64,000 nucleotides of DNA from Daedaleopsis sinensis (Eukaryota; Basidiomycota; Agaricomycetes; Polyporales; Polyporaceae): the NCBI GenBank assembly GCA_033807695.1, contig CM066311.1, forward strand, positions 1,426,001 to 1,490,000. Reading direction: 5' to 3'. Numbering within the stretch: position 1 is the first letter of the stretch; each line of letters begins with the position of its first letter. The notes under the pieces were generated by a model, which was given only the letters and a program-made list of their open reading frames with translations, was not told where the DNA came from and searched no databases. This document shows positions 7,292 to 47,935 of the stretch, piece after piece. The position numbers were made by a program, and so were the translations under genes.

Positions 7292-8060
7292 CACGGCATG
7301 CATGGCCACATTCCAGGACCCCTGACAGTCACATGGAATTCCCATGACAGTCATAGTCGCCAAGGTAATTCCTTGAACATGTCATACGTCAGGACAGTAT
7401 GAATGTCGCAGGCATTTCTCTACATGATTCTTTGTACAAGTAGTCTAAGCTGGCGAGCTCAATGTAATTCACTTGACATATGCTTGGAATGGATACAATG
7501 TGGCTCGAGACAGTGGCTAGGAATCACCGTGGAATTTAATGTGTGTCGAGCATTCCAAAGGTATGGCCTGCTTCGAGAAAAGGACGAGAAATGTACCGCC
7601 AAGGAAGTGTAACTAACAAAGGCCGTGACATCCTTGAGATTGTCGTCTTTCATGTGTATGTCACAAGGGCTAGAAGGTAGGCAGGTAAGTCAATGTCACG
7701 GCGAGACAAATGCGTTAGAAACAGGGCTTTACCGTGGCAGGAAAGTTGTTTGACATGTCCCCGACCTTTTGACCATACAGCCGATGTCCCACCCAAAGAT
7801 ACGTGCAGCAAATGCTACTGTCAAGGGTATTCATCAGTGCAGGAAAGTTTATCGGTCAATGAATGTGACATGCCTTTGACACTCCCCTATCACGTCCTTT
7901 GGAATGCACATGGAATTGCTATGGAATGATTGACCAGGGCTCTCGAAAGCGCTGCATCGCGGAGAGTCGCCCCACCTCGCGAACATTCGCATTCGACGCG
8001 GGGAGTTGCGGCTGAGAGCGAGTGAGAGATGTCGGTGAGAGGGAGCGCACCGTCGTGCGC
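7292..8060 (+). repeat. Left terminal inverted repeat (769 bp)
   Basis: Matches the reverse complement of 47164-47932 without indels; I found about three substitutions by eye. Rich in short palindromic motifs such as TGACATGTC-like and GGAATTCC-like boxes, which could be transposase binding sites. ORFs inside the TIR (for example 7693-7929) are mirrored in the other copy and are not credible genes. Beyond 8060 the two ends diverge. Confidence 0.95.
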
Positions 8061-10230
8061 TCGCCTGCTACTTGCAGCTCTCAGACGTGACCGCCCGCAC
8101 TGACCAACAGCCATTGCGCACGCTCACGCTCACGGCCCCGGTCGCGACCTGCCAGGAGCTGGAGGTCATCCTCGTGTAGCCGATAGGCGTGACTCTTCGT
8201 CTGAGTCCGCGCCGCGCCGGTCGCGAACCGACAGCCATTGCGCATGCTACCGGACGCTCACGCTCACGGCCCCGGTCGCGACCTGCCAGGAGCTGGAGGT
8301 CATCCTCGTGTAGCTGATAGGCGTGACTCTTCGTCTGAGTCCGTGCCGCGCCGGTCGCGACTGCTCGCCTCAGTGCGAGCGAATGAGAGTGCTCCCGCGT
8401 ACACGACGCTCGCGTCAGTGCCGACGGTCACACCCCAGAGCTGTAAGTAGCGGGCGAGAGCGACTCGTCGTCTGAGTGCGCGAGCACTCGCGGTTGAGTG
8501 CACTCGGACGCTCACGTTCGCGCCGCCGGTTGCGACTTGGAGCTGGACGTCAGCCCCGAGTGCGCGACACCGAGCTCCCGCACGCACTCGGACGCTCACG
8601 TTCGCGCCGCCGGTTGCGACTTGGAGCTGGACGTCAGCCCTGAGTAGCGGGCGAGAGCGACTCGTCGTCTGAGTGCGCGAGCACTCGCGGTTGAGTGCAC
8701 TCGGACGCTCACGTTCGCGCCGCCGGTTGCGACTTGGAGCTGGACGTCAGCCCCGAGTGCGCGACACCGAGCTCCCGCACGCACTCGGACGCTCACGTTC
8801 GCGCCGCCGGTTGCGACTTGGAGCTGGACGTCAGCCCTGAGTAGCGGGCGGGAGCGACTCGCCGTCAGAGTCCGTGCGACAGAGTGCTCCCGCACGCACT
8901 CGGACGCCCATGCTCGCGCCGCCGGTTGCGACTTGGAGCTGGACGTCAACCCCGAGTGCGCGACACCGAGCTCCCGCACGCACTCGGACGCTCACGTTCG
9001 CGCCGCCGGTTGCGACTTGGAGCTGGACGTCAGCCCCGAGTGCGCGACACCGAGCTCCCGCACGCACTCGGACGCTCACGTTCGCGCCGCCGGTTGCGAC
9101 TTGGAGCTGGACGTCAGCCCTGAGTAGCGGGCGGGAGCGACTCGCCGTCAGAGTCCGTGCGACAGAGTGCTCCCGCACGCACTCGGACGCCCATGCTCGC
9201 GCCGCCGGTTGCGACTTGGAGCTGGACGTCAACCCCGAGTGCGCGACACCGAGCTCCCGCACGCACTCGGACGCTCACGTTCGCGCCGCCGGTTGCGACT
9301 TGGAGCTGGACGTCAGCCCCGAGTAGCGGGCGGGAGCGACTCGCCGTCAGAGTCCGTGCGACAGAGTGCTCCCGCACGCACTCGGACGCCCATGCTCGCG
9401 CCGCCGGTTGCGACTTGGAGCTGGACGTCAACCCCGAGTGCGCGACACCGAGCTCCCGCACGCACTCGGACGCTCACGTTCGCGCCGCCGGTTGCGACTT
9501 GGAGCTGGACGTCAGCCCCGAGTAGCGGGCGGGAGCGACTCGCCGTCAGAGTCCGTGCGACAGAGTGCTCCCGCACGCACTCGGACGCCCATGCTCGCGC
9601 CGCCGGTTGCGACTTGGAGCTGGACGTCAACCCCGAGTGCGCGACACCGAGCTCCCGCACGCACTCGGACGCTCACGTTCGCGCCGCCGGTTGCGACTTG
9701 GAGCTGGACGTCAGCCCCGAGTAGCGGGCGGGAGCGACTCGCCGTCAGAGTCCGTGCGACAGAGTGCTCCCGCACGCACTCGGACGCCCATGCTCGCGCC
9801 GCCGGTTGCGACTTGGAGCTGGACGTCAACCCCGAGTGCGCGCGACACCGAGCTCCCGCACGCACTCGGACGCCCATGCTCGCGCCGCCGGTTGCGACTT
9901 GGAGCTGGACGTCAGCCCCGAGTAGCGGGCGGGAGCGACTCGCCGTCAGAGTCCGTGCGACAGAGTGCTCCCGCACGCACTCGGACGCCCATGCTCGCGC
10001 CGCCGGTCGCGACTTGGAGCTGGAGGTGTCCTCCGAGTAGCGGGTCGGCATGACTCTCTGTATGAGTGTGCGCCGCGCCGGACGCGACTGCTCGCCGCGG
10101 TGCGAGCGAATGGGAGCTCTCTCGTACACCGCAACGCTTGCGTCAGTGCCGACGGTCACGCCCCAGAGACAAGTAGCGAGAGACAGCACCTGCTCGTCTG
10201 AGTACGCGCGAGCCCTCGCGGTTAGGTGCA
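8061..10230. repeat. Left subterminal GC-rich tandem array
   Basis: Composite array. The commonest monomer is 84 bp, containing GAGTGCGCGACACCGAGCTC and GTTGCGACTTGGAGCTGGAC. From 9126 it is organised into 199-bp higher-order units (84 + 115 bp) starting at 9126, 9325, 9524 and 9723. A less regular leader lies at 8061-8460 and a divergent tail at 10020-10230. Long ORFs on both strands are produced by repeat periodicity and are not called. The position just inside the TIR fits the subterminal repeats that CACTA transposases or accessory proteins bind. Confidence 0.88.
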
Positions 10231-10407
10231 TCCGGACGGTCAGTCCAAGATGTCAGCTGTCATTAGGAGCTGTTCGTTAGCTCTAGCGCAAGAGACGGTT
10301 GATTGATTGTAGAGGCACTTAATGCAATGTAGTGATATGCTGCTTGTGACGGGATCGCATTGCCTACTACTGAGTGTAAGTTACATATTGATTAGCTCTG
10401 CAGAGGC

Positions 10408-13400
10408 CTAGGTAAGCTGAGGACTCTGCTTATGATGCATCTTGTGACTTACCCTGTCCAGTGCCTTGATGACGACACATTCTGTGCCAATATCCTCGGG
10501 GGTGTACTTGAGACTTGCAGCGTGTGAGATGACATCGACCAAGGGGACAACAACACTGCCTTTGTCGAAACTGTTGTAGTACAGGGCCGCATTGAGCGCA
10601 GGGTATTGCCGGTATGGATCCTTGACACGGTCTTCCTCGGAGAGCTTGGAGTACGTTTCGACAATCAAGAATGGCTCGATCTTGATGTTGCCACCTTCTT
10701 CCCTGCGGTTGTGGTAGAAGATGGAGGATATCCGTCCCACGAGAGGGGATTGATTCTGTGCGGTCCGGAAAACGATGATGGAGTTGCCTTGATTGTACTC
10801 GTGAGTCGCAAAGTTGACACCGTCTCGGGAGACTTCTGCGACAAATTGTCCGCAATCGTGGAGACGGGCTAGACTGTTATCTATAGGGTCGGACACGGAT
10901 TGGAAACGCCCACGCCCGGTTGTGTTGACGATATGGAGGAGTGACTCGTAGATGTGCGAGCTAAGGCGTTTTTCTTGCCGTCGATTATAAGTGTGGGAGT
11001 CCAGGCCATCGAACCCGCTCGAGAGAACGTCGGTGACACGTGTACCCCGGGCACTGTCGCAGAATGCGGTATCGTAAGCTTGCACCATAGTTTTGTACTC
11101 CTCAGATTCAGGCCACTTCGTGCTGCACATCAACCACCGAACGCTAGCTCCCAGATAGAAGTAGCGCATAAAGGTGCCAGGCAAGTCCGCTACCGGAAGA
11201 CGTCGATAGGTGGTTAGGAACTGTCACTGCCAGCAAGAGCTCAACAAAACGGACGTACCAGCCTTTGAGTTCGTGTTGAGGCGGAGAAGCATCCCATTAT
11301 ACCTCTCAAAGGGGAATGCCCACCATCCGTGCACGGGGCCGAAGATTTCCAGGAATAGCTTCAGATGCAGTGCTAGATGGTTGTTAGGGACGAGTTTGTG
11401 GTCGTAGAGCTTCCGAAGCCCAATGAGGTATTGCTGCATGTGGTATTCATAGGTGGTTGCGCGCGAGGAACTCATGGATCTGCGAGCCGCGAGATCGACG
11501 GCAACGATCAGATGAATGAAGTTGTCAAGGACCGCCTTCTCTTCCGCCGTAGAGGTTGAGCATCCCCACAACCGAACGAGGGAGATGGCCATGTTGATTG
11601 TGCAGACCGTGCGCCAATGGTCGGCCTTCAACTTTCCCCCTCCCGCAGTTCCGAAGGTAGTTGGTGCTCGTTCGATCCAGGAAGGGAGAGTGGTGGAGGC
11701 AATGTCGGCGCAAAGTTGCTGCAGAACAGGAGGAGTGAATACCTGGTATGGGGACGGCTGCCGTGGAGGCTCATCGTAGGGAAGGCGAAACCTAGAGGCA
11801 TCCTCGTCTAGAACTGGAGGGAGTTCGAACGTCTCGAGATTGTCGTTGAGTGCGAAAGCCTGGATAGATCAAAGTCAGCGCGCTGATGCAGACCAGTATC
11901 GAACGGCGACGTACCCATGCCAGTAATGCTTGTGCGAACTGTCGTTTTGTGAGCTTTGACGTAGTCTCTCCCACAACACGATTGAAGCGCGCTACGGCAG
12001 ACAGGTAGTCGCGCCGTACATTCGTCAGTGCGTCGACATCGCGGGCGGCCAGTGCCTTCTTGATCCGATTGAGCTGAGCCTGCTGCTCCTTCGGGGAGTG
12101 AGCTTTAAGCTCGGCGGTCTCACGGAGGCCGTCTGTATGCCACACTTTGCGACAATGATGAGCGAGCTCGCCGAGAAACAGATTGTGCATGACATCAAGG
12201 ACGACGTAGCGAGTGGGGTCCCAGTAAGGTAGTCGTAGGAGCTGGGACCAACGAATCCCGTGAGTGTCGAAGACCTTCTGCCTCAAGGCCGCCGTCGGCG
12301 CTTCCTTCCATGCATTTGCGTGGAACGCGTGTTCGAACCAGCTTCGCGGGTTAGGCCACTTCGTGCTGTCGACCTCCTGTAGGTCCCGAAGGGTCATAGG
12401 ACACATTGAACAGAAATGTGTAGAAGAGTAAGACCCGAACCCGGCAGCCTTCCGAGCTGCGGGTAGATCAGCAATGAAGGGGATGACAGCTGCCCGAACC
12501 AGGCGACCCATCGAGTAGTCGGCAGTCTTCTTGAGGAAGATGCCTGGGTTCCACAGCTTTATGAGCTGGTCGACGAGTGGACGAAAGAGATGGTTCAGCT
12601 GCTCGAGGGAGGGCTCTTTTGGACCAGGTATGACTCCGGCAAGATAGATGTTCTCGGGGCGATAGCGGAGGTGAGGAGGGAGATTGAGGCAGGCGAGGAA
12701 GATAGCACCGACGGAATGCGCTTTGCCTGCGGCCTTGTTGCCGTACGGATTGAACCAGTCCACAGAGAAACTGAAGACGAGATGCGCAGAGTTGTTCGGC
12801 TGAACAGAGAATAGAGTCCTCCCATCGGGGCCGCGAAACTCACGGATGGCGGAAGATTGCATGATGTCATGACACCATTCGGAAGTGCTTGCATCCCAAG
12901 ACTTCTTAATCTCTTTCTCGATGTCTGGTCTCCCCATGAACTCCGCGATCCAGGACTCGAAGCACCGGTATGGGTAAGTGCGCACAGCGCGATAGACGAG
13001 TTTGACAGGATCGCGTTTTTTGATGGGTCGGATCCGCTTCTCCACGACCAGAGGGGAGTTGCAGGGCTCCTGGTCGACATCACGGTACGTACAGATGTGG
13101 GGGTAGGGATCGTCGGGCTTAGTCAGGTCAGGCAAGTATGTCGCGAAGCAGGTGGAACAGCAGGCGTAATTTGTTATGTGCGGGTCGAGGTCCAACATGT
13201 TCATTGCGGTACGGATGTCGAGCGGGATGCTGCGAATGAGATTTTCGTGGGCGTAAGTGAGAGCATCACGATTGTTTCCCCAAGGATTGACGAAGTCGAC
13301 GGTAAATGCGCCAAACAGCAAGACTTTCAACGTTGCTAGGAGGAACTCGACGCGAGGGAACGACACTGCTGCCATCGAGTGCATGATAGTTGCCATGAGA

Positions 13401-14372
13401 AGACCGGCGAGAATGAAGGGTTGCATCGATGAGCGGTCGCGATGCAACCCAGCTATTGTCACGATCAATACGTGATCGCTGGCTAAACCATACCACGTAC
13501 CTTCAGGGACGACGGTGGGCTCTGCCGCGGTGGGATCGATATTATGTCGAAGCAGATGTTCGTACGCCAGCTTGTTCCAAACGTTCCGCTCTATCTTCAC
13601 AAGGCGAGCGAGCTCTTCTTTCATAGATCTCATTTCCGCGGCAAAGCGATGGTCGGTGTCCTTGTCACCGACATCCACAAGACCGTCGTATTTGCTCAGG
13701 GACTGCATAAGCCAGTTTCGGTACGCCAGGAAGTCAAAGTTCTTCGGATCAAATTGCGCAAGCTCTCCAGGCGGATCGTTCAACGACGTTGGTGCAGCCG
13801 TGAACACAAGGGCGGGGGTTTCGGGAATCGCCTTCGCCATCAACATTCTGTACGACTGAAGCTGTGCATGCAAGTCCTTTCTAGACCGAACCGCACTGGC
13901 CGTCTACAACTCGGGTCAGCTCCGATGGCGTGCGATAGCAAGAACGCACTCACTGCATGTTTTTTCTGCATATTGAGGCCTTGCTGTGCGTCAGCTTCCG
14001 CAGTTGGTTCTGGCGCCGATGCATCAACTTTCTTGGTCTACTCGTTCACCGTTAGCAATCGTGGTAAGCCACTGCTGAAACCGGGGAACGTACCGACGAT
14101 TGCGCTCCTCGTTGTCCCGGCTCCCGCGTCCGCGCTGCTCGATCACGAGGGCGCACATGCAGGGGGGCGTCGACTACGGGAGGATCGACCAGAGTCGATG
14201 TGACGATCGCATGCTCTACAGCGGCCTGGGCGTGTTGCTTCTCCATCGTACGCATTGCGTCGGCGGCGGCATGCTGTTTCGCCGTCGTCGAATTCGTTTT
14301 CTTTCCCGGGAGTATGCGGTCGCCATTGCGATGTGTTGTGTGGATGCAGATACTGCAGAGACACACCGGCAT
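10408..14372 (-). CDS. Tnp2-type (CACTA superfamily) DDE transposase
   Basis: Probable mobiliser of the element. Exons on the minus strand: 14094-14372, 13954-14037, 11915-13903, 11259-11859, 10408-11189, giving about 1244 aa, all phases compatible. The N-terminus starts MPVCLCSICIHTTHRNGDR, a Cys-rich opening common in basidiomycete Tnp2 proteins. The core has VDWFNPYGNKAAGKAHSVG (first Asp, about 12757), YVVLDVMHNLFLGEL (second Asp, about 12190) and HGWWAFPFERYNGMLLR (Glu, about 11300), consistent with the D-D-E triad. The last two exons carry the DUF4218-like C-terminal region. The junction 11259/11189 was chosen because it is the GT-AG pair that keeps frame. A further small 3' intron near 10447 is possible, which would change the last residues. 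No inactivating mutation was found. Confidence 0.9.
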
Positions 14373-14523
14373 TGGCAGGGAGGGGGAGCTGGGAAGAGAT
14401 GCGTGGGAGCTGTTAGTAGATCAGTCCCATCGACATGGGTGATGGCAATACGGAATAAATCTTTGAATATATAGATTAGCAAATGACCGGTCGATTAAAT
14501 ACAAAACCGGAAGGAAACAACAA

Positions 14524-15960: not shown

Positions 15961-16432
15961 GAGGTGGTCAGAAGGAAAGAGTTGTGGCTGGAGTCGAGCG
16001 CCACGACGCGATTTGACCTGCCCAGCCAAGAATTAAAGATGGCCTTTATGATTCAGAACGGGAAAGGGAAGCGGATCGACGCACATAAGCCAAAGAGTTG
16101 CATTATCTTGCAAGCACCTGCAGCAACACATTGGCGCGTTCGATTCGGCAGTGGGATACAAACACTAAATATATAATTTTTGACATCCAACTGAGTGAAA
16201 TGATGGATGTGGGACCATTACGGTAGATGTTAAGATATGTAGGGAAGTACAGGAGCAAAGGGCGGCACAAGGCAAAGGGGAGAGGAGAAAGGACGAGACG
16301 AGAAGAGCGTAAGACGATGGTCTTCGTCTATAACTATGCGCGAGAAGTGATAGGGGAGGAAGGCTGGATTGACACGGATGCTCGAGAGGAGGGCGTGCGG
16401 CCGTCGACGAGGAGACAGGCTACTCACTGCAA
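15961..16432. other. Short intergenic stretch in the element
   Basis: No gene supported. 16250-16330 is purine-rich (AGG/GAG runs). Confidence 0.4.
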
Positions 16433-17596
16433 TCACACAACCACGAGGGAGGGATTGGAGTTGATGAGATGGACCGTCCGCTCCCATTCCCCGGTCGGCT
16501 TGGACCAGTGACTGATCACGCCAGAACTGACGCGTGTACCGGTCACGACGGCCTTGTACCAAACACCGACGTGATGGAGCATGGGGTGAGGGTGACCACA
16601 GTTGCTCGTGGCCTTGCGTGCACCATGAACCCAACGCATGATGGTCTTGCGTTCGTCATCGACATCAGCGGCGTGCTGGACGAAGGACGAGGCAGTGCGC
16701 AGCACGAGCTCTTCGAGTAGAGGCAGCCGGCGAAGTGCCTTGCCCCATGCAACACCGTCATTCCAGGGGCGACGAGCCATGCGGCGACGACCCTGCCAGA
16801 ATCTTTAGTAAGTCCCGGCAGAACGAGTCACGGATAACACATGGACATACATTGTCAGCGGCCTCCCAGAGCTTGAGTTTTTGAAGACGAGGAGCGGCCG
16901 CAATGATCGCGTCCAAGATGTCGTGCTCGTGAGGGTAAAAGTCGAGTATCAGAGCGTGGAGGTGCTGGAGGGGCGGCGTGATCTTGCGGAGCAGGATAGA
17001 AGGCGAACGGCACTGAGGCGTGCTCAGTGAGAGTAAGACCCGAGAGCAGCGGGGATGAACGTGTGGCACGATACAGTCGGAGGGACCGGCGAAGGCGGTG
17101 ATGTGGGCAAGGTCGAGAGCGCGAAGAGGACAATCCCTAACCGATCCGCATGTGAAAAGACGAACTTCTGCGAGACCCCTGTGGCGTACGAGGAAATCGG
17201 GGAGGAGTTTGTGGGCGTAGTTCGTCTCGAAGAGGCGAAGGTGGGGGAATTGCAGGCCCGCGAGGGAGGTCAGGACGGTAGGTTGACGCGACGTAATCGA
17301 GAGATCTAGGTGGACGATGTTGGGGACCAGAGTGAGGTAGAGGCCGAGGGATCGATAGGAGACTGGGAAGAAGAGGATGATTTTGAGATGGGAGACGGCG
17401 GCACCCACAGCTGCATCGGTAGTCGCCACTGCGTTCTTGAGTTCGACGGGGCCACATATGAGGACGTCCTTCTGTACGAGAACAACGTTAGACGGATGCA
17501 CCAGTGCGTGAGGCGGCAGCTCACCTTGAGAGGCAGGTTCTGAGCTTCCTGTCCCGGAAGGAATGCCTCGGGCAAACGGTGGTTGGACGAAGACAT
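16433..17596 (-). CDS. Leucine-rich F-box-like protein A (element cargo)
   Basis: 350 aa from exons 17525-17596, 16851-17471, 16433-16792. Starts MSSSNHRLPEAFLPGQ. The middle contains irregular leucine-rich segments (LTLVPNIVHLDLSI, FPHLRLFETN, LQHLHALILDFYPHEHDIL, APRLQKLKLWE), as in basidiomycete F-box/LRR-type proteins, but the F-box itself is not evident at the N-terminus. The C-terminal exon begins GRRRMARRPWNDGVAWGKAL and matches the last exon of 30638-31897 (GRR...RRAFNDHLSWNRGL...LEELALRT), so the two are paralogs inside one transposon. A role as substrate receptor or protein-binding scaffold is only a family-level guess. Confidence 0.8.
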
Positions 17597-24997: not shown

Positions 24998-26483
24998 TTA
25001 CTGGTACATGATCATCGCGATGCATATGGCGGTGAGGAGCCAGGAGAGACAGAGGAGCATAGCGATCGCGCACAGGGTGACGCGAGGCCTCGCCTCGTTG
25101 CTTCGTGAAGGAGTTTGTGACGACCCGTTACCTGTCTATGGCTTAGTAACGACACGCGTAGGGGATCTAGGAACGTACCCGGCATTGGCTCATGCGCCTT
25201 CCAGATCATGCACAGGGATGGAGCTTCGACGTTCATGACTCCCGCTGCGATGAGAAACTCGTCGAGCTCTTCGTTGTAATGCGCCTATCACCTTCAGTTA
25301 GCGGTTCCGTAGACGGTCGCGCGCTTTACGTGGCAGACCTACCGCGACGGCGAGAGCCTTTGCTGCCTTTGGGATGAGCTTCTTGCACATCGCTTCCGGC
25401 CGGGAACGTCCTTCGTTGTCCCGGCAATCAAGGATGGGCAAAAGATCCCACACAGTGATCTCCCCCGATGTGCTTCCCGTGAGTACAGCTAGGTCACCAT
25501 GGATCCATAGAACGTCGGTCGGGAATCTTTCCTCGACCTCATCTTCCAAGGTGCAGAGTACCTGGCCCGATTCGATGTTATAGATGTCCACTCCACTGTG
25601 CAGATTTGACACTGCAATGCGTTCTCCATCGTGAGATATGCTTGCGCGCGCACTGTTGAGGAGAATCTGAGGTCGAGTTGAGGTACATAGAAAAAGGGCG
25701 CGAGTCTTACACCAAGCCGTCGAAGGATACTTTACGAACTTGAGTCCATCGTGTGGTTTCGAACACTCTGAGCATCACAGTCAGTAGAAGAAGTGTGTGG
25801 AGCTCGTTACTCGAGCAGCTTACATTAGACCATGGTGCATGTATGTCACCGCAAGGAGAGACGTATGTTGTGAAGACGACGTCCAATGGACACTGGTAAC
25901 GATCACCTCCCTAGGCTTGCCATGGGATACCTGAGAGGGCTCATTCAATGTGCACTCCTTCTCGAAGTATCCGGCTGTCAATTTGTGGAGTCCGTGTGAG
26001 GTTACGATGATCGTTGACGGAAAAAGCTTCGCACCCGCGCAATCCCATCTCCAAACGGATAGTTCGGAACACGCTCCTACGGCCAGACGGTCGCCCATAA
26101 GAGCGAGACATTCCACAGGTTTGTTATGAGCCCATACTCCATAGACCTCAATGCTGTTCTAGAAAGAAGTTAGAGTGCTGTGCACCAGATAGATGACCAT
26201 GGATGAAGCGACCTACACCTCCAACGTTCATACACGCAATTGTACCATCGGCAAGACCACAAATCATAACATCATCTCCAGGAGGTGCCCAGATGAGTGC
26301 AAGGACCTCTGTTGTTCCGGTAAAAACGTAGAGTAAAGCGCTCTTCTGCACATCCCAGATACACACCCGGCCATCGAGTCCAGCAGTGGCGATGAATATT
26401 CCAGTCGGGCTGAAGGCCACTTTAGTGATCCCTCGTGTGTGACCGCCGGCAAGGCGTTGAAAGTCTTGATATCCTTGTGGCAT
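24998..26483 (-). CDS. WD40-repeat protein with C-terminal membrane anchor (element cargo)
   Basis: 406 aa from six exons: 26217-26483, 25824-26158, 25713-25767, 25343-25666, 25179-25284, 24998-25131; all phases agree. The N-terminus is a canonical WD40 blade (GHTRGITKVAFSPTGIFIAT, then AGLDGRVCIWDV), followed by weaker blades (VECLALMGDRLAVGACSELS, ISHDGERIAVSNLHSGVDIY, VLTGSTSGEITVWDLLPILD). The last exon ends in a single hydrophobic segment, VTLCAIAMLLCLSWLLTAIC, five to ten residues before the stop, so the beta-propeller would be tail-anchored on the cytosolic or nucleoplasmic face of a membrane. The topology recalls Sec12-type proteins, but I see no specific Sec12 match. The start is the first in-frame ATG before the first blade. 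Confidence 0.87.
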
Positions 26484-30637: not shown

Positions 30638-31897
30638 CTAGAAATCCACGTCCTGGTAGCGTACTCCGCGGACAGGCACGCCGAGCCTGACCCAGTTACC
30701 TCCGTCTTTGAACCACTTCGTCAGGGTTGAAGTCTTCACCGTGTTGCCATACCAGATACTGATATGGAACAGGTTCGGGTGTTGACGACGCGTCGTCGAA
30801 GAGCTCGAGCGTCTCGTTCCTTGAACCCAGCCCATGAGGAGCCGCCACTCCAAGTCGTGATCGCCGGGCCGTACTACCAACTCGGCAGACGTTCGAAGAG
30901 CAAGTTCCTCGAGGAACACGAGCTTTCGCAGACCGCGGTTCCAGCTGAGATGGTCGTTGAAAGCTCGACGGATGGAAGTGCGACGCCCCTGCACGAATAA
31001 CCAAAATATGAGTAAATGATCGAGTATGCATCCACCAATGCAGACACACCGGGCGTGCTTTCTTCTCCAGAAGTTTCAACTTCCGTAGCGTAGGGGCGGC
31101 CAATGCAATGCCGTCGAGGATCTCGAAATCGTCGGTCAAGAAGTCGAGTGTAAGACTGTAGAGGCTGCGCATTGGCGAGAGATTTCGTATCTTAGAAGCA
31201 ATGTAGAGAGAAGAGTCGTCGTTGGAGATGAGAAGGCGTGTCAAGCCTTCGTGGGCGATTGCGTCTATGCAGGGAGCGCGACATTCCAGCGTTGTGATAC
31301 GAGCGAAGCTTGTCGCTTGAAGGGGACAAGGGCCTTCACGCTCGTGGCATGCATCGACAACGAGCTCGCGTATGGATGCGTTGCATCCGAGGAAACCTCG
31401 AATAGCTCCATGAGGTAGGTTCGTCTTGAAGAAAGAAAGATCCTCGAAGAAAACCTGAAAGAAGGCGGCGGCGGGTGTAGTTTTAGGGAGCATGAGTGTG
31501 AGGTCCGTGAGGTTGGGGGCGTTGCGGAGGGCGTTACGAATTGCAGGCACATAGGCAGCTCGCGCATACGGGTCGGTGAGGGCGGTGGGGGATACCGTGA
31601 TTGTAAGCTCTCGGAGGACGGAGCGAACGTCGTTGTCGGCTTGGGCAACCTTCGCAAATGCTAACACTTCCGCGATGCTTGAGATTGTGCGGACGGCCTA
31701 ACAGAATCGAAACTCAGATTGTGTGCGACGCTATACGCTATGAAGAGAGCTCACGTACCTTCGGAGCCGCTCTGAGGACGAGCTAAGAAGGCACCCATTC
31801 CTCAGTGAACATTCTTGCCACGATGCATGCTCATTAAGTCACTCACCTGGTCTACCATGGCCTGGGTATGAAGCTGGGTATAGATAGAGACAGACAT
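30638..31897 (-). CDS. Leucine-rich F-box-like protein B (element cargo)
   Basis: 357 aa from exons 31847-31897, 31759-31782, 31050-31697, 30638-30988; all phases agree, including a 24-bp micro-exon. Starts MSVSIYTQLHTQAMVDQ. Leucine-rich segments include LRNAPNLTDLTLMLPKT, ARITTLECRAPCIDA, LTRLLISNDDSSLYIAS and RSLYSLTLDFLTDDFEILDG. The last exon (RAFNDHLSWNRGLRKLVFLE) matches that of the gene at 16433-17596, and both have an intron at the same place. Both resemble the F-box/LRR proteins that are numerous in Agaricomycetes, but an F-box is not visible. Probable duplicate within the element, now diverged. Confidence 0.8.
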
Positions 31898-32484
31898 GAC
31901 GAGGATGTGCTGAAAGAGTCGAGTGTTTGGTCGAGGTGAGAGGCGCAGAGGCAGCAGGAGCTCACGCATGGCAAACGATGGATCATTGACAAAGGTGCTT
32001 GTGCGCACTTTGTCGCTTTTGAGTGAAGTACGTCATCGAATGCAAGCCGTAATCTCGCAAGGACTCAGTGCGAGATTAACGGCTTGGGGGCTAGCCTGCA
32101 AAGCTCGCCGAGTGCTCCATATAAGATGAGGCGAGTCGCTAAAGAAAGTGACAGATCTAGATCGTAGCCGGAGGAGGAGGAGGTCGGTCCAGAGAACCTC
32201 TCCGAGAGCGCCCGTATGGACGGCACCCTTCACGGTCCCACGCCACCGCGACAGTCTATTGCCACGAAGCACTGAGCTAGTACTAGTAAGTCTTTGGTTC
32301 CTTTATCGTTGCCCATTTTCATAGTTTTGTAGACTCGGCGGCGACTCGTCCGTACGTTCGGCAGCTTAATAAAGACGTCGTTTGAAAGCAGAGGATACAA
32401 GTAAGCAAGCCCTGGACCTCCATCTCCCTAAAGTTCACGCCATTTCCACACCACAACGTCAGTGCACTCTCAGCGACCCTCATA
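31898..32484. other. Intergenic stretch in the element
   Basis: Divergent promoter region between the LRR-like gene (minus) and the small TM gene (plus). No gene supported. Confidence 0.4.
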
Positions 32485-39156: not shown

Positions 39157-40248
39157 ATGCGCTCGAGTGCGAACGCTCGCGCACGGTTTGACCCGCGTCG
39201 ATTCGCGACCGAGATTCAGCCATCGTCCGGTGAGTGGCGTCCTCACCTTTTTCGTTGTGTATCGCTCACATTGCACTCAGAGAAACGTGTACACTTCGAC
39301 CGCAGTCCTGCAGCGTCTCCCAGATCGCCCAGACCTTCAACGTCTGCGGAAGCTACACCTCTTCCTGCAAATCCTCTACCCACCTCTTCCACTTCACGGG
39401 TCTGGCGGTTTGCTCCGTCATGGTTACCATCCTCCTGGCTTCCCTGCTTTGTTATCGTGTTCTATCTTCTTGTACGGGATGGCTGGATAGCCGTTGCGTT
39501 GACAAAGCTTTCTTCAAGCACGGCCAGGGTGGGCACGCCGAAAGGATGGTATCATTGGCTACATTCAAATCACGAAACCATTCCGCTTGAGGTGCGGAGG
39601 TACGTGGAGGACGCCGTCGCTCGATCGTATCGCGGACCTGTTGGGCTGCGAGACTACGCCCTTGCCGCCGATGGTGGAATGATATTCGAAGAACTCACTT
39701 CCCCTCTCTCCGACGGCACCACATCGTTCCATCGTTCCACCCTCTATCCCCACTCCCCCGAAAATGTTCTTGATGAAGACACTAGGGTTGGCCATTGCTG
39801 GTTGATACCTACAGGGAATGGGCAGGTTGGCATCGTGTTACCTGAACTCATCTATCCGACCCACGTCAGCATCGACCACATTCCGAAGGAAATAGCCGCC
39901 GATATCGGCCAAGCTCCCCGCAGGCTGTTCCTATGGGGTGTAGTGGATGGCGCAGGCAATCTCCAACGCTTCCAAGAGAACGTCTCTGATTTCCAGAACA
40001 AGAGCACCGGCGACACATGGGGTCCTCCCGTCACTACCGAGGGTCTATCTTTCATCTTGCTCGCCGACTTCGTCTACGACATCCATGCAAACCCTACCCA
40101 AACGTTCCCACTCACTACACGTACAGCCGACTACGCCATCAACATCGGTCTTATCGTCTTGCAAATCGTCAGCAATTGGGGCTCTGAATCCACCTGTGTG
40201 TATAGGACGCGCATACATGGGGTCAAGTACACCAATCAGGAGATGTAG
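39157..40248 (+). CDS. SUN-domain (Sad1/UNC-84) protein carried by the transposon
   Basis: 346 aa from exons 39157-39229 and 39281-40248 (51-bp intron, GT-AG). Residues 1-70 are basic and Ser/Pro-rich. About 77-99 is one TM segment (WLPCFVIVFYLLVRDGWIAV). About 148-337 is a SUN domain in order: ADGGMIFEELTSP, PENVLDEDTRVGHCW, GQVGIVLPELIYPTHVSIDH, IPKEIAADIGQAPRRLFLWG, FPLTTRTADYAINIGLIVLQ, IVSNWGSESTCVYRTRIHGV. These are the standard conserved blocks (APR-F-x-W-G, SNWG, T-C-x-Y-R-x-R-x-H-G). SUN proteins sit in the inner nuclear membrane with the SUN domain in the lumen and pair with KASH proteins in the LINC complex. This copy lacks the long coiled coil of animal SUN1/2; a short linker is normal in fungi. 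The presence of this gene inside a DNA transposon is the odd point. Confidence 0.93.
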   Translation: MRSSANARARFDPRRFATEIQPSSGEWRPHLFRCVSLTLHSEKRVHFDRSPAASPRSPRPSTSAEATPLPANPLPTSSTSRVWRFAPSWLPSSWLPCFVIVFYLLVRDGWIAVALTKLSSSTARVGTPKGWYHWLHSNHETIPLEVRRYVEDAVARSYRGPVGLRDYALAADGGMIFEELTSPLSDGTTSFHRSTLYPHSPENVLDEDTRVGHCWLIPTGNGQVGIVLPELIYPTHVSIDHIPKEIAADIGQAPRRLFLWGVVDGAGNLQRFQENVSDFQNKSTGDTWGPPVTTEGLSFILLADFVYDIHANPTQTFPLTTRTADYAINIGLIVLQIVSNWGSESTCVYRTRIHGVKYTNQEM

Positions 40249-40627
40249 ATTTCCCATCCTAGGTATGTGTCGCACCGATATTCCTTCCCTCACAGGATTT
40301 ATCCGTTGTGCCCTGTAGCCTCAACGAAGACTTAGACTTGTTACGCCACCCGGTAGCTACCGAGCCGACTCGCATGAACGCCTTTGTAATAGTATGTATC
40401 ACGCAAATGATTGTTATTTTCTTCGTTATCATCTTGCCCGCACGCACGTATATTCATCCTTGCTCCAAGCTTAAGGTTTGCTCCGTCCGTTCTCTGGCGT
40501 TGACCTCTTGGCACGACGTTTTTGACCCCTTTGCGCTTTTCACCGTCTTTTGGCATACATACTACATTGCCATCAGCGTCTTATAGACAGTATAAATGCT
40601 CGAGCCACGGGTCCCACATTTTCCACC
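40249..40627 (+). other. SUN gene 3' region with small TM open frame
   Basis: Probably SUN 3' UTR. A + frame from 40374 reads MNAFVIVCITQMIVIFFVII, a hydrophobic segment, and runs about 70 residues to 40586. It may be a small membrane protein or chance. Confidence 0.35.
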
Positions 40628-42684
40628 ATGATTCCCTCACCACACGAGCCACGCGAACTTCCAACGATCGCCGAAAGCCTGGCACCCCACCCTCAGACTG
40701 TGCAACCAGCGCCTTTCGACACAAGTGAGCCCCCTCCGGTTGCCGGCTTCAAGCGACTTGCCTCAAGAGCAGAGCTCGTGAATAAGAAGAACGTGAAGGT
40801 ATCTCCAAACGTGAGTGCGCTGTCATGTAGTCATATCGGCGGCTGAATCAGACGGCCTTGCGCTAGGATTGGGCGAAGGCGATAAGCGTGAAGGAGCACA
40901 AACGATACCAGATTGATATTCGTCGCAAATCGCAGGAACCACTTGGCGGAGCGGATGTACGTACCGTGGCTGGCTACTGGCCGTACATCGTATACTCTCT
41001 GATACACTTGTCCCCACATCAGATCTCTTCTGTTTGGCGAGGCTACGGTGAGGCCCCTGTTCAAGAATCAACGCCCGCCTCCGCGCAACCCCCTCCTGCG
41101 GACGCACAGACTGATATCACGGGGACTGAAGTTTTGCCTGAAGACACGCAGCGTTGCGCCCCAGACCCAGAGCCGACTCTTGTCCACCCCGCACCGACCC
41201 CCAACGAAGCCCAAGTCTTTACCAAGGATACACACGTCTCCGCTATTGACGGCGAGATCGCCATCTCCGACCTACAGCAAGCTGACGTCGACGTTCAGCT
41301 TCCCTTCGCCGACGTGATGCTGGACGCACATCAGCATCTCGCCTACGTACAACCATCCCCCGCTAACGCACAACTTCCTGTCGACGAGGCACAAGTCTCT
41401 ACTATGCACACACAGGGCCAGATTACCCTCTCCGACCTGCAGCAAGCTACTGTTGGCGCCCACCTTCCCCCCAACAACATGCAGGCTCCTGCCGACGACA
41501 TGCAGGCTCCTCCCGTCGACATGCACGCTCCGCCCATTATGGACGCTATGCGGCCACTTCCCGCCGACGAGCAGCACCGTCTTGCCGACATGCAGCAGCC
41601 TCTCACCGACGTACAGCCTCCTGTCACCGGTATACAAATCCCTCTCATCAACGTCGAAGTCCCTCCTCCTCACGCGCAACCGCCTCTTCCCGTTGCGCAA
41701 CGGTCAGCGGCTGACGTGCACCATGATCGTCCAGCCACGCAAAATGGTCGTGTTGATGCAGACGTAAATATGATTCCCGCCGACGTTCGACCTCCTCGGA
41801 CCGACATGCAACCGCCAGAAGACCCCATGGAGGAAGATGATCCTCGAGAGCTACAAGTGCCGCAGGTCCCCTCTACTTGTCCCGTACCCCCCTACCCACA
41901 GGCGCACATCCGACAGAAGAGTTGCAATCCGGGCTCTGCAGCCCAACCATCGGAACACCTGGAGGGTCGCAACGACGACCCGCATCAGGCTCGAGCTCCT
42001 TCGGTGGGAGCGTATAATCCACATGCTGCATCGCATCTCTCCGGGCAATCCCTGACACGAGCGCCCGCTGCTCGTGCAATGTCGGTGGCCAACGCACCTC
42101 GGACTGTTCAGGGCAAGCCTAGTTCAGGGAAAGGGAAACAACGTGCTCCTGCGGGACCTGTTCGTCCAGTGGTTCCCCTCCCCAATGGGCGAGCATCTCA
42201 GCCTCCTATTCAGTCTTTCATGTTCAATTTCCAGGCAACGCCACAGCCTGTGTCCGTCCCCACCAACATTATTCCATCGCGAGCGAACGGCGTTGGGCAT
42301 ATCTCGTCGTCGCAAGTCGCTCCCTCTTATGGGGCGATGCGCGTGAATGAGCTTCAAAAAGGTACTGGAGCACCTGAGGCGACGTCGGCGCATGCGCATC
42401 GACTCGGGGCCTTCGATCGCACTGGAGGGTCACAACCAGCCCAAGGAGGTTATGCTCCCCAACATGCACCGTCCCACGGAGGGGTCTATGCGTCCCAGCA
42501 TGCACCGTCCCACGGAGGAGTCTATGCGTCCCAGCATGCACCGTCCCTCGAAGGGGCGTATGCGTCCCAGCATGTACCTGCTGATAGATATGGTCACCCT
42601 CTCCGGGCACCGCAACATGGTCAAACTCTCGATCCGGCCGTCAGATATGCCAGCGATGCGAACCACCAGCAACAGCAGTGGCAG

Positions 42685-42729
<45 letters not shown>

Positions 42730-44954
42730 CAACAACAACAACAACAACAGCGGCAGCACAACAACCAGCATCAACCGCAGGCACATAACTACCATTCACC
42801 GAGCACTTCGCAAGGTCCACATGGTGCGAACATGGTACGTCTTCCCAATCCTAGATGTAGATGTTCAGTGATGCGCAGGCTCACGATATTCTGTAGCCCG
42901 GGCCACCTACGGAGGTAGTGGAGCTATGGGACAGGCTCGCAGATCACGACAAGCAACGCTTGCTCACATATCTCACACCTGCAAATCACCAGCCGTCAAT
43001 TCTGCGGCCCTCGGACGTTGTAAGTGTCGACTTCTGTTACATGAACTACTGTTAACTGACTGCTATCTTAAAGGACTATGACATGGAGGACAACAGTCAA
43101 CATGTCCAGCAGGGCTACACGAACGTACAGTCTGGTCCGTATGGCGGGTTCCCGCCCGCGACTCAATATTCCACACCGAACACCCTCGGTAGTGGAGAAT
43201 ATCGCGCAGGACCGTCTTCAACGAGGCAGAGCAGCCAACCCGCTTACACTCAACGTTCCGCACCGATGACCCCTGGTCGTGGAGACTATCGCGCTGGACC
43301 GTCATCGACGAGACAGAATGCCGGTGCAACTGCTTACACTCCAGCGCAGATCTTCGCTGTGGAACAGGATGTGAGCCTGACAATTTTTCAAACGAAGACT
43401 ACACCTATTAACTCAATCTAGTCCATCGCCCCTCAAACACCGCACTCTGAGCACATTACAGTTGTGCTCATGAATCACGTCCAGTCGTTCGCAGCAGACT
43501 TGGCTGCTCAAACTCGTGCAACGTAAGCTGGTATCCCTTGACGCACAGACCTGGAACTCATAAAATGCTTCAGTCACGCTATTGCGGAGAACCTGAAAGG
43601 AGTTCACGATCAACTCAATCACATGCAATCTCTGCCGGATACTCCCCAGCGAGTTCCCCACTACACCCCCTGCAATTCGCCTACTGTTCGTCGAAGTGCT
43701 CGTCAGTCCCGTTCCAAGGCTGCTCGCATTAATCTCGCGCAACTCGATCGTGAGGAGGGCGAGGATTTCACCGCGCGGCTTCAGGCCGTTACGTCCGACG
43801 ACGACGAGGATGGCGAGACGCCTTCGGCCGGTTTGCTCGGACACGACGACATGCCGAAGATTCCGAAGACTACGGACAGGGAAGAGGCGTTAATGATTGG
43901 GGGTATGACCAAGCAACAGCGCTGCGACGTTGAAGGGACATACCTGAATCGTCTACAGGTGCGTGCACTCTTTTCTGATTTCGGCTAGGGAGATTTAGTC
44001 ATTTTCACCCAGGAAATCGTCCGAGGTCGCCTGCTCCACCTCCTCGGATGCACTACCTTGGACGATATAGCTGAAAAGTGTCCGCCTTTGACGGAAGACG
44101 AATTGGCAGACTATGCACTACAGAAGGGCAGCTACTTCAATCCCAGCAACTTTCGGATCGACCTCAAACTCGGCTGGAAGAGAGAGCCTTTCAACGTCGA
44201 AGCTCGTAGCTTCCTTGTCCGCTACATCATGCAGTGGGCGGCCGGGCAAGACGTCACTATTCCATCGCGATATCTCACACCAACTCAGATTGGTTTGGCG
44301 GTGGATAGCCACATGGATCATGTCCGCACGAAGTGGCGGCAATTGACAAAGCCAGCGAGTCCTATGGCGATGCTCAAACGTCAGACTGAAAAGGCGAATA
44401 GTAGCCGCCAGAAGTCGGTGCGTAGAGCGGTCTCACCGTTGCCGTATGATATGCTGACACATTCTTAGCTTTTGATCGCCATGCGTCACGTCGTGGCAAA
44501 GTATGGCATGAGAGCGCACGTTGCCCTCCTCAGCAAGCTGGAACCGCGACATATGTGCAGCGATGAGCCTCTCGACACCGATGCGGAAGACACCAACACT
44601 TTCCTGGTCACGCAGGCAGAGTGGCAGAGCGACGCCTTTCGGCTCTTCGTACGTCATCTCTACGACATCTACGTCCGCGACTGGAGGAGTCCGGTTGGAG
44701 GCCGTCGTCGCTCCGGCAGGGGTCCCCGCAAACGGATCGAGGACACGGGACGCTCCGTCGACTCTCCTGCTCCAATTGGCCTCTGGGTGAATTGCTATAG
44801 CCCTGAATGGCTCTCGAAGCAGGAAGATTGGGAGATCCTTGAGCTCCAGATCGTCAACAAAGTCTACGATTTGACGATCGATACGAAGACAAATGTCGGT
44901 GCGAAGGTTGCTGCTGAGTTGCAGAGTGCTATGGGAGAGATAAGGGATGGTTGA
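40628..44954 (+). CDS. Very large Q/P-rich protein next to the right end of the element
   Basis: About 1300 aa. Exons 40628-40810, 40867-42834, 42897-43019, 43074-43370, 43422-43522, 43574-43958, 44013-44417, 44469-44954; all phases agree. A further 66-bp in-frame intron (40957-41022) is likely. Layout: short N-terminal block (VKEHKRYQIDIRRKSQEP); 500 residues rich in Asp-Met-Gln-Pro phrases; repeats of YASQHAPSHGGV; a polyglutamine tract; a second disordered region with two copies of YRAGPSSTRQ; then a folded C-terminal part (EIVRGRLLHLLGCTTLDDIA, AEWQSDAFRLFVRHLYDIYV, EWLSKQEDWEILELQIVNKV). No known family. Its place beside the subterminal array, opposite the transposase, resembles CACTA elements that encode a second protein (TnpA-like) binding subterminal repeats. 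That role is inference. Confidence 0.75.
42668..42750 (+). repeat. CAG/CAA microsatellite encoding polyglutamine
   Basis: Run of CAG then CAA codons within the large gene 40628-44954, encoding more than 20 Gln. Confidence 0.9.
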
Positions 44955-45164
44955 CGACGGGATTGGCTGTTGGTGGGTTTCATTCTGATGATGACTGTGC
45001 GATACATACACGAATGCAGGCAATCTCGTGAGAACGGTCGTCTCGCGACTTCTTCCACACAGCAGGCAAGACATGCACCGCGGCACGCACTGTCTGCTAC
45101 TGCTAAGGTGAGCAATCCACTTGAGCGTTCCATGACAGAAGACGAGTCGCTTCCGCCCGCTACT

Positions 45165-47163
45165 CGGGGCTGACCTCTAGTCGCGGTCGGCGGGCGTACT
45201 CGTCGTCCGAGTGCGCGCGAGAGCTCTCTGTCGCACGCACTGAGACGACGAGTCACGCCCGCCCGCTACTCGGGGCTGACCTCTAGTGGCGACCGGCGGG
45301 CGTGCTCGTTGTCCGAGTGCGCGCGAGAGATCTCTGTCGCACGCACTGAGACGACGAGTCACGCCCGCCCGCTACTCGGGGCTGACCTCTAGTGGCGACC
45401 GGCGGGCGTGCTCGTTGTCCGAGTGCGCGCGAGAGATCTCTGTCGCACGCACTGAGACGACGAGTCACGCCCGCCCGCTACTCGGGGCTGACCTCTTGGC
45501 GACCGGCGGGCGTGCTCGTTGTCCGAGTGCGCGCGAGAGATCTCTGTCGCACGCACTGAGACGACGAGTCACGCCCGCCCGCTACTCGGGGCTGACCTCT
45601 AGTGGCGACCGGCGGGCGTGCTCGTTGTCCGAGTGCGCGCGAGAGATCTCTGTCGCACGCACTGAGACGACGAGTCACGCCCGCCCGCTACTCGGGGCTG
45701 ACCTCTAGTGGCGACTGACGGGCGTAGTACGCTATGTGGAGCTGACCTCCAGCTACAAGTTGCGACCGGCGTTGGCGACCGTGAGGGGCCGGGTGCGCCC
45801 AACCGCGAGTGCTCGAGCGCACTCGGATAAGAACCAGGTGCCCTTGCCTTCCACTTACAGGTTTATGGCGTGAACACCGGCACTTGCGCAAGCGTCGCGC
45901 TCCACGGCAGGCTCTCACTGAGGCGAGCAGTCGCGACCGGCGCAGCGCGCACTCATACAGAGCGTCGCTCCCACCCGCTACTCGACGCTGACGTCCAGCT
46001 CCAAGTCGTGACGGGCGGAGCGAGCATGGGCGTCCGAGTGCGTGCGGGAGCTCTGTGTCGCACACTTGGAGCTGACGTCCAGCTCCAAGGCGCGACTGGC
46101 GTCGCGAGTGTGAGCGTCTGAGTGCACTCAATCGCGAGTGCTCGCGCCCACAGACGACTCGTTGCTCTCGCACGCGCTCCAACTACGAGTCGCTCCCACC
46201 CGCTACTCGACGCTGACGTCCAGCTCCAAGTCGCGACGGGCGGAGCGAGCATGGGCGTCCGAGTGCGTGCGGGAGCTCTGTGTCGCACACTTGGGGCTGA
46301 CGTCCAGCTCCAAGGCGCGACTGGCGTCGCGAGTGTGAGCGTCTGAGTGCGCCCAACGGCGAGTGCTCGCGTTCACTCGAATGACCAGTTGCGCTCGCCT
46401 GCTACTTGCAGCTCTCAGACGTGACCGCCCGCACTGACCAACAGCCATTGCGCACGCTCACGCTCACGGCCCCGGTCGCGACCTGCCAGGAGCTGGAGGT
46501 CATCCTCGTGTAGCCGATAGGCGTGACTCTTCGTCTGAGTCCGTGCCGCGCCGGTCGCGACTGCTCGCCTCAGTGCGAGCGAATGAGAGCGCTCCCGCGT
46601 ACACGACGCTCGCGTCAGTGCCGACGGTCACACCCCAGAGCTGTAAGTAGCGGGCGAGAGCGACTCGTCGTCTGAGTGCGCGAGCACTCGCGGTTGAGTG
46701 CACTCGGACGCTCACGTTCGCGCCGCCGGTTGCGACTTGGAGCTGGACGTCAGCCCTGAGTAGCGGGCGGGAGCGACTCGCCGTCAGAGTCCGTGCGACA
46801 GAGTGCTCCCGCACGCACTCGGACGCCCATGCTCGCGCCGCCGGTTGCGACTTGGAGCTGGACGTCAGCCCCGAGTAGCGGGCGGGAGCGACTCGCCGTC
46901 AGAGTCCGTGCGACAGAGTGCCGCCGGTCGCGAACCGACAGCCATTGCGCATGCTACCGGACGCTCACGCTCACGGCCCCGGTCGCGACCTGCCAGGAGC
47001 TGGAGGTCATCCTCGTGTAGCTGATAGGCGTGACTCTTCGTCTGAGTCCGTGCCGCGCCGGTCGCGACTGCTCGCCTCAGTGCGAGCGAATGAGAGCGCT
47101 CCCGCGTACACGACGCTCGCGAGAGGCTGTGATACAGCTCTTAGCCTGGGTGAGCAGGTACGC
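45165..47163. repeat. Right subterminal GC-rich tandem arrays
   Basis: Three blocks. (1) 45165-45715: 106-bp units (CGGGGCTGACCTCTAGTGGC...) starting near 45271, 45377, 45483, 45587 and 45693. (2) 45966-46350: two copies of a 225-bp unit in the orientation inverted to the left array. (3) 46388-47130: sequence in the same orientation as the left array (46391 onward matches 8062 onward, including the GGAGCTGGAGGTCATCCTCG phrase), although it sits before an inverted TIR. The long ORFs here are repeat artefacts. Confidence 0.85.
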
Positions 47164-47932
47164 GCGCACGACGGTGCGCTCCCTCTCACCGACATCTCTC
47201 ACTCGCTCTCAGCCGCAACTCCCCGCGTCGCATGCGAATGTTCGCGAGGTGGGGCGACTCTCCGCGATGCAGCGCTTTCGAGAGCCCTGGTCAATCATTC
47301 CATAGCAATTCCATGTGCATTCCAAAGGACGTGATAGGGGAGTGTCAAAGGCATGTCACATTCATTGACCGATAAACTTTCCTGCACTGATGAATACCCT
47401 TGACAGTAGCATTTGCTGCACGTATCTTTGGGTGGGACATCGGCTGTATGGTCAAAAGGTCGGGGACATGTCAAACAACTTTCCTGCCACGGTAAAGCCC
47501 TGTTTCTAACGCATTTGTCTCGCCGTGACATTGACTTACCTGCCTACCTTCTAGCCCTTGTGACATACACATGAAAGACGACAATCTCAAGGATGTCACG
47601 GCCTTTGTTAGTTACACTTCCTTGGCGGTACATTTCTCGTCCTTTTCTCGAAGCAGGCCATACCTTTGGAATGCTCGACACACATTAAATTCCACGATGA
47701 TTCCTAGCCACTGTCTCGAGCCACATTGTATCCATTCCAAGCATATGTCAAGTGAATTACATTGAGCTCGCCAGCTTAGACTACTTGTACAAAGAATCGT
47801 GTAGAGAAATGCCTGCGACATTCATACTGTCCTGACGTATGACATGTTCAAGGAATTACCTTGGCGACTATGACTGTCATGGGAATTCCATGTGACTGTC
47901 AGGGGTCCTGGAATGTGGCCATGCATGCCGTG
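47164..47932 (-). repeat. Right terminal inverted repeat (769 bp)
   Basis: Reverse complement of 7292-8060, ends GGCCATGCATGCCGTG. Differences seen by eye: three single bases. Confidence 0.95.
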
Positions 47933-47935
47933 CCT
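47933..47935 (+). other. Target site duplication, right copy (CCT)
   Basis: Directly follows the right TIR and equals 7289-7291. Confidence 0.85.

Follow-up and report, generated by a model that had tools for sequence, protein, structure and literature searches.

The window analyzed here is a 64,000-nucleotide stretch of Daedaleopsis sinensis DNA (C12:1426001-1490000 of a 51.6-Mb, 24-contig genome) in which positions 7292 to 47932 carry what we read as a single insertion of a giant, structurally intact-looking DNA transposon of 40,641 bp. An earlier note, made from the letters alone, had described a CACTA-like transposon with cargo genes at this place. The features of the element and of the interrupted host gene are as follows, with a strand given where one applies:

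6749..7291, + strand: 5' part of a split sugar-transporter paralog (host flank)
7289..7291: left copy of the CCT target site duplication (TSD), directly outside the left end
7292..8063, + strand: left terminal inverted repeat (TIR), starting CACGGCATGCATG (repeat alignment, terminal-motif family)
8446..10044: left subterminal tandem array, GC-rich, with units of 84, 115 and 197-199 bp
10367..13840, - strand: Tnp2/EnSpm-type DDE transposase, a 5-exon model of 1072 amino acids (aa) with no internal stop
16433..17596, - strand: LRR-like protein 1, 350 aa
18593..20027, - strand: MP, 459 aa, with hydrophobic stretches by eye and long helices in the model of a Fomes homolog
24998..25688, - strand: WD40-like beta-propeller gene (WD), exons partly modelled and at a laxer setting only, the domain being seen in the C7 homolog
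27603..28230, - strand: X, 170 aa, with no known domain
30638..31969, - strand: LRR-like protein 2, related to LRR-like protein 1 (the default-setting model is shorter, 30638-31798)
39157..40248, + strand: SUN (Sad1/UNC) domain protein, 363 aa, a single-exon open reading frame (ORF)
40628..44954, + strand: Q-rich protein (40628-42918), followed by the conserved region P408 (43623-44954); the two may be one gene
45137..46921: right subterminal tandem arrays, GC-rich, in part inverted and in part direct copies of the left array
47161..47932, - strand: right TIR (repeat alignment)
47933..47935: right copy of the CCT duplication, directly outside the right end
47936..49328, + strand: 3' part of the split sugar-transporter paralog (host flank)

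Ends, transposase and genes of the window element

The inverted arms 7292-8060 and 47164-47932 differ at 3 positions in a gap-free alignment of 769 bp, in agreement with the roughly three differences first reported, and can be extended to 7292-8063 and 47161-47932, i.e., to 772 nt each. The element starts with CACGGCATGCATGG and ends with the complement of that start, so that its termini read CACGG..CCGTG; these and the CCT duplication had both been noted before and were seen again, and the duplication is 3 bp long because the next base beyond CCT differs between the two sides. No third terminus was found inside the element with the 23-base end motif, which at up to 6 substitutions matches only 7292 and 47910-47932. 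Joining the flank through 7291 to 47936 onward produces one gene model of 462 aa with 74% and 69% identity to the intact neighbours at 80-1436 and 3695-5529, the latter of which is a Pfam Sugar_tr protein (E 3.2e-90). The interrupted paralog does therefore give the empty site, as had been claimed, and its precise sequence is GTGTCCTACCCC. Repeated subterminal regions such as the arrays listed above are usual in CACTA elements. Rfam at its gathering threshold gave 0 matches.

The internal transposase, previously assigned to the Tnp2/CACTA type, matches Pfam PF02992 (Transposase_21, tnp2; E 8.5e-17 and 1.7e-16) at 60.5-61.5 bits against a cut-off of 28.6, which bears out that assignment. Its landmarks VDWFNPYG (344), FIADLPAARK (439), CSMC (461) and PFERYNG (809) were located by eye; the CSMC and D/D/E landmarks are thus eye-picked candidates for the C(2)C motif and the catalytic DDE residues that EnSpm/CACTA enzymes carry along with an H(3-4)H motif. 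The best named matches of the protein are from Trametes and Ganoderma (up to 54% identity), with weaker ones reaching Agaricus and Puccinia, and in a transposase tree built without Repbase references the protein falls among PF02992 proteins from Trametes, Ganoderma and further fungi, on long branches and outside every starred set. A Tnp2-type transposase, 5'-CAC..GTG-3' ends and a 3-bp TSD define EnSpm elements in the excerpted text of PMC12730594. The window element combines a PF02992 enzyme, CAC..GTG termini and a 3-bp duplication, and by its ends, TSD and transposase family it is assigned to the EnSpm/CACTA superfamily. Two other superfamilies were considered with the same excerpt and rejected. 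Plavaka elements end in TGT..ACA (2-bp TSD) or CATCA..TGATG (2-3 bp), which the CACGG..CCGTG ends do not match. Among KDZ elements Kyakuja has 7-bp TSDs and no TIRs and Zisupton an 8-bp TSD, and the window element has a TSD of 3 bp, not 7 or 8, and no PF18758 match in its scanned ORFs and models.

Eleven gene models lie wholly inside the window element at the default setting of the predictor, and more at laxer settings. Eight of the genes, including the transposase and also WD, which was modelled only at a laxer setting, have a counterpart in a related element on C7, while the remaining models are weak or unshared; the "over a dozen cargo genes" of the earlier note are thus not firmly supported. 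The SUN gene scores 67.8 bits with PF07738 (cut-off 22), and by eye its protein has a single stretch that looks transmembrane, besides the SUN C-terminus NWGSESTCVYRTRIHG; its C7 homolog matches SUN2/SUN1 structures in the PDB at 1.5e-8 to 2.7e-7. One further SUN match (C8:1046146) lies in an open frame of 730 aa, distant from every detected transposase; it may represent the SUN gene of the host itself. Several WD40 propeller models matched the C7 WD protein, none of them reaching its cut-off (best E 1.3e-6), and the LRR proteins gave weak matches to LRR models only, with no F-box match in LRR-like protein 1. In the Pfam scans neither X nor P408 reached any family above its cut-off.

The structure predicted for P0001, a Fomes homolog of MP, is all helical with long helices (pLDDT 78). 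A fold search of the PDB with this model gave no match at E <= 0.001, the best being F-BAR and other helical bundles at E 1e-2, and the MP profile gave only five weak PDB matches (E 0.07-0.9). For P408 the protein search returned a single homolog, and the model of the Lentinus homolog P0031, a poor one (pLDDT 54), had no structural match at E <= 0.001. In Lentinus tigrinus the P408 homolog also contains, by eye, a part that looks like the end of the Q-rich gene of C7; since it joins both parts, the Q-rich protein and P408 may be one gene.

Related giant elements in the genome

The genome search for the TIR that the earlier note had proposed found the full repeat in this copy only, with five weaker matches elsewhere; the terminal motif revealed a family of giant elements. 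This motif, CACNGCRTGCAT..GGACCCCTGA, was drawn from the outermost 34 bases and searched with up to 3 mismatches; it identified 16 ends, or 21 when relaxed, against 0 for a control in which the pattern was reversed. Fourteen of the 21 ends form seven giant inverted pairs, four form two pairs of 0.3-0.4 kb, and three are single. Each of the seven giant pairs encloses a transposase match and is bordered by a 3-bp TSD (7/7), as follows:

C12 (window element): 40,641 bp, TSD CCT
C7:2106412-2137502: 31,091 bp, TIR 1391 bp at 98.9%, TSD TAT
C8:2832230-2864479: 32,250 bp, TIR 1399 bp at 99.1%, TSD CTT
C8:4053688-4137220 (inner): 83,533 bp, outer 800 TIR bases 100% identical (0 mismatches), TSD TCC
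C8:4051883-4166270 (outer): 114,388 bp, or 30.9 kb minus the nested element, outer 800 bp 99.9%, TSD TAC
C5:899528-947237: 47,710 bp, outer 800 bp 99.5%, TSD TAC
C6:2052865-2077454: 24,590 bp, about 775 bp aligned at 97.3%, TSD GAA

Of the C6, C5, outer C8 and inner C8 elements only the ends were read, and their TIRs were compared over the outer 800 bp. The elements' own sizes run from 24.6 to 83.5 kb and the termini of the six outside the window are CACAG..CTGTG; the TIRs, at 0.77-1.4 kb, are unlike those of ordinary CACTA elements, which are short. The inner 83.5-kb C8 element is nested in the 30.9-kb outer one, approximately 1.8 kb from the latter's left end, and looks young, judging by the 0 mismatches in its 800 TIR bases.

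The clearest case of movement as one unit is given by the elements C7:2106412-2137502 and C8:2832230-2864479, which are collinear in opposite orientation over 26.4 kb at 99.36% identity (the sum over 7 hand-chosen high-scoring segment pairs). Of the 34 such pairs between the two copies, none runs past the element ends by more than 5 bp, and no match was found between the flanks that were compared (411 and 998 bp; 229 and 521 bp). Both copies carry a nested 3.2-3.4 kb transposon at different places (C7:2114401-2117790, and C8:2839657-2842852 inside the transposase gene), with inverted arms of approximately 1.1-1.4 kb, CACCTGTGGTCACC ends and 7-bp duplications TCGGCAG and GGTTCGA; this transposon is absent from the window. 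Collinear copies with unrelated flanks, differing TSDs and separate nested insertions indicate that the ~30-kb unit moved whole before those insertions, and we regard this unit as mobile in its entirety. The earlier note had named as refuting a finding that all strains carry the same 40 kb with no empty site and unrelated flanks elsewhere; as far as this could be tested it was not borne out, relatives being present elsewhere and one pair being ~99.4% identical between unrelated flanks.

The three single ends are C12:2455232, C3:3618492 and C6:3621502. The first is a left end and belongs to a sister of the window element, with a TIR identity of 68% and a nearby X gene 69-80% identical; no right end was found by the motif search, and this sister is either truncated or diverged. 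The two small pairs, C1:1229811-1230212 (402 bp) and C1:1190159-1190490 (332 bp), share the terminal motif and are likely non-autonomous derivatives resembling miniature inverted-repeat transposable elements (MITEs). Other transposons adjoin the window element on its right: a second PF02992 (tnp2) transposase gene at 50889-53268 (- strand), at most 26% identical to any row of the transposase tree, and pieces of a KDZ transposase (PF18758) with a CxC2 cysteine cluster (PF18803) at 55213-58098 (- strand).

The shared gene complement

Six gene families, i.e., the transposase, LRR, X, WD, SUN and P408, were found between the paired ends of all seven elements (7/7). In six of the seven these follow the order P408 - SUN - (MP) - X - WD - LRR - transposase - LRR; measured by hit starts, the distance to the nearer end is approximately 2.0-3.4 kb for P408 and, on the opposite side, approximately 2.5-3.8 kb for an LRR gene. 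Even the smallest paired element (24.6 kb) has the transposase, two LRR genes, X, WD, SUN and P408, and two of the larger ones have extra DNA between these genes: approximately 24 kb between WD and LRR in the C5 element, and approximately 53-59 kb (C8:4057000-4116000) between the outer LRR gene and the transposase in the inner C8 element, together with one more LRR match. In a 3.9-kb sample of this C8 DNA two ORFs had no Pfam match; the extra DNA of the C5 element contains a Tet_JBP match at C5:920246-920638.

The proteins of the window and C7 elements have diverged, with aa identities of 52% for the transposase, 46% for LRR, 66-69% for MP, 36-51% for WD, 36-41% for X, 45-46% for SUN and 35-42% for P408. 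For the nine best window/C7 pairs, identity is 46-80% at codon positions 1 and 2, 28-43% at third positions and 22-46% at fourfold sites. Synonymous sites thus look saturated while the proteins are kept, a codon pattern which points to purifying selection on the accessory genes as well as on the transposase.

Relatives of the same families cluster around transposases across the genome. Hand-merging of matches reduced the transposase from 58 to 33 loci, MP from 30 to 17, P408 from 49 to 29, LRR from 48 to 25, WD from 77 to 35 and X from 46 to 43, with all 30 SUN matches kept; these counts are lower bounds, and the transposase search scored 43 of 129 candidates. Since the loci are not independent of one another, binomial values computed as if they were are given no weight here. 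The regions within 50 kb of the 33 transposase loci make up 6.2% of the genome, and they hold 15/17 MP, 24/30 SUN, 26/29 P408, 23/25 LRR, 35/35 WD and 40/43 X loci; conversely, 31 of the 33 transposase loci have X relatives within 50 kb. At six transposase loci of a more distant group (three on C3, C4:1193185, C7:1089745 and C9:128593) WD and X are present and, beyond these, a single weak P408 match (C3:4482973, E 5e-4); two others (C4:797223 and C7:161641) have X only.

Other species give hints, in sequence records, of similar gene neighbourhoods. Named relatives of MP (up to 71% identity) come from Fomes, Ganoderma, Cerioporus, Earliella, Polyporus, Daedaleopsis, Trametes and Lentinus. In Trametes pubescens the MP homolog TRAPUB_8487 and the transposase homolog TRAPUB_8489 have neighbouring tags, and both records give a 32,224-bp contig; in Phlebia brevispora the predicted protein P0052 combines PF02992 and WD40 models, which is what a mis-joining of neighbouring genes would produce; and the Lentinus tigrinus protein described above is a further hint.

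Taken together, six families that recur in 7/7 elements, in the same order in 6/7, and with codon patterns of purifying selection argue for a mostly fixed gene set and not for random cargo. We take most of the "cargo" to be the element's own, a conserved complement of genes such as a complex autonomous element would have. Of the giant multi-gene cargo element first proposed, the single giant element with long TIRs stands, and the genes inside are for the most part this conserved set and not random cargo. We put the probability that the window holds a single giant EnSpm/CACTA transposon with a gene set conserved across its family at about 0.93, a figure that excludes the roles of the accessory genes.

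Several observations weigh against this interpretation. MP lies between the ends in only four of the seven elements and was not found in the other three, and in the window element, where the transposase is near one end and P408 near the other, both LRR genes and MP are displaced. The Q-rich proteins and the second LRR proteins of the window and C7 elements are just 32% and 33% identical, respectively, the Q-rich pair being of low complexity. Within 30 kb of a transposase the shares fall to 14/17 for MP, 21/30 for SUN, 21/29 for P408, 22/25 for LRR, 34/35 for WD and 36/43 for X, and 6/30 SUN, 3/29 P408, 3/43 X, 2/25 LRR and 2/17 MP loci are beyond 50 kb of any detected transposase. The gene models come from a home-made predictor that worked on genomic sequence alone and was trained on 223 kb of this genome. 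As the full TIR is unique to the window copy, its own movement rests on its TSD, its empty site and its relatives; movement in general was read from the sequence of a single genome.

Alternative readings, possible roles and known systems

The near-identical TIRs would also be expected if two small CACTA copies had mobilised an ordinary host segment between them, with the genes as passengers, and small MITE-like pairs of this family do exist (the 402-bp and 332-bp pairs on C1). We nevertheless give this composite origin hardly any credence: there is one TSD and one empty site, both at the outermost ends, no third terminus lies within the element, the same six gene families sit between the ends of 7/7 elements, and two ~30-kb copies are collinear at different sites. 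The related concern of the earlier note, that two independent small elements merely surround host DNA, is ruled out by the single TSD, the single empty site, the missing third terminus and the shared content. An ordinary CACTA element with genes captured by chance and swollen by nested insertions would resemble the Pack-TYPE elements that take up coding DNA in plants (excerpt of PMC8903248), and the nested 3.2-3.4 kb element with 7-bp duplications in two copies shows that such swelling occurs. The genes are, however, common to diverged elements and look constrained, and the smallest element, at 24.6 kb, retains the complement given above, which makes chance capture very improbable.

A vehicle of the Starship kind, in which variable cargo serves the host and the conserved genes are old passengers, is compatible with a single giant transposon with a conserved gene set and could hold for the larger elements. 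It would accommodate sizes of 24.6-83.5 kb and the ~24 and 53-59 kb of extra DNA between the core genes of the C5 and inner C8 elements, and Starships of 41.9-605.8 kb, one of them with direct repeats and TIRs, have been described in the basidiomycete Tremella (excerpt of PMC13066641). With such repeats on record for a Starship, the ends do not decide the question. Against such a vehicle stand the core gene set and order kept across diverged elements, with codon patterns of purifying selection, and a mobility enzyme of the DDE type. The extra DNA itself speaks little for host-serving cargo: that of the C5 element has a Tet_JBP match, such as would come from nested transposons of the KDZ or another TET-bearing kind, and the two ORFs sampled from that of the inner C8 element are those lacking a Pfam match. 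No DUF3435 captain match was found in the subset of element ORFs and gene models that was scanned, nor in the genome, and this is weak evidence as control genomes also gave none; because the control was silent, setting the Starship aside rests on the DDE enzyme. We consider such a vehicle unlikely.

Under the preferred reading of a giant EnSpm/CACTA transposon with its own gene set, the Tnp2-type transposase would act on the TIRs and subterminal repeats, as inferred from its family, and would cut and paste the whole 25-84 kb unit; the accessory proteins may serve the element and not the host, though this is said more weakly. The fold searches with MP and P408 gave no match at E <= 0.001, which weighs against proposals of a role for these proteins. 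Speculatively, the most direct reading of the SUN domain is a role at the nuclear envelope, where SUN and MP could tether or position the DNA of the element, or nuclei in the dikaryon, and LRR, WD40 and X could, equally speculatively, be adaptors acting on host factors or silencing, host factors being what LRR and WD40 bring to mind. In a bolder and unlikely version, a giant DDE lineage of Agaricomycetes would carry its accessory genes as a module dedicated to transmission and protection, in which SUN and an MP rod would bridge the nuclear envelope and aid the spread of the element or nucleus between dikaryon nuclei or through meiosis, with LRR, WD40 and X working on host factors. Such a lineage would be a mobile unit on the Starship scale, reached from a cut-and-paste transposon.

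Cut-and-paste transposons are thought of as small. According to the excerpt of PMC6431247, cut-and-paste efficacy falls significantly above 6 kb of cargo, although 100-200 kb have been moved in artificial constructs; the DDE elements described here, at 25-84 kb, have matching ends, TSDs and a retained multi-gene complement. In mushrooms, then, large elements of the cut-and-paste type may be complex mobile units as well as vehicles for chance cargo, and it becomes testable why a CACTA element would need SUN-domain, LRR and WD40 proteins. The repeated gene set could also make such families seem expanded in polypore annotations.

No giant fungal CACTA element with this gene set was found in the literature searched (titles and abstract openings of CC0, CC BY and CC BY-SA papers in PMC), which is not proof of absence. 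The window element shares with other EnSpm/CACTA elements (CMC/CMCT group) the Tnp2-type transposase, CAC..GTG ends, 3-bp TSD and subterminal repeats, but ordinary members have one or two ORFs (excerpt of PMC6431247), as against 24.6-83.5 kb with six to seven common gene families here. Chondrus crispus, a red alga, has the closest precedent found, an enlarged En/Spm with 4-5 ORFs in 16-20 kb (excerpt of the review PMC6431247, citing Kojima et al. 2013); it is similar in its several ORFs and enlarged size but smaller and algal. CNIRT6 of Cryptococcus neoformans is likewise a basidiomycete member of the CACTA superfamily with CACTG-like ends, and it moved in experiments, but it has one transposase gene of ~6.9 kb and no accessory module is described for it in the excerpt of PMC12810828. 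Plavaka and KDZ elements of Agaricomycetes are likewise DNA transposons and occur in related fungi, and some of them carry a TET/JBP gene as an accessory; Tet_JBP has no match in the window element and 22 genome-wide, of which one (C5:920246) is inside the seven paired elements. With Starships the giant elements share a fungal host, a size of tens of kb or more and the movement of many genes as one unit, and they differ in having a Tnp2-type DDE transposase in place of the tyrosine-recombinase captain described in the excerpt of PMC13066641. Giant elements as such have precedents in basidiomycetes, the Tremella Starships (same excerpt); what would be new is a giant DDE element whose gene set is fixed.

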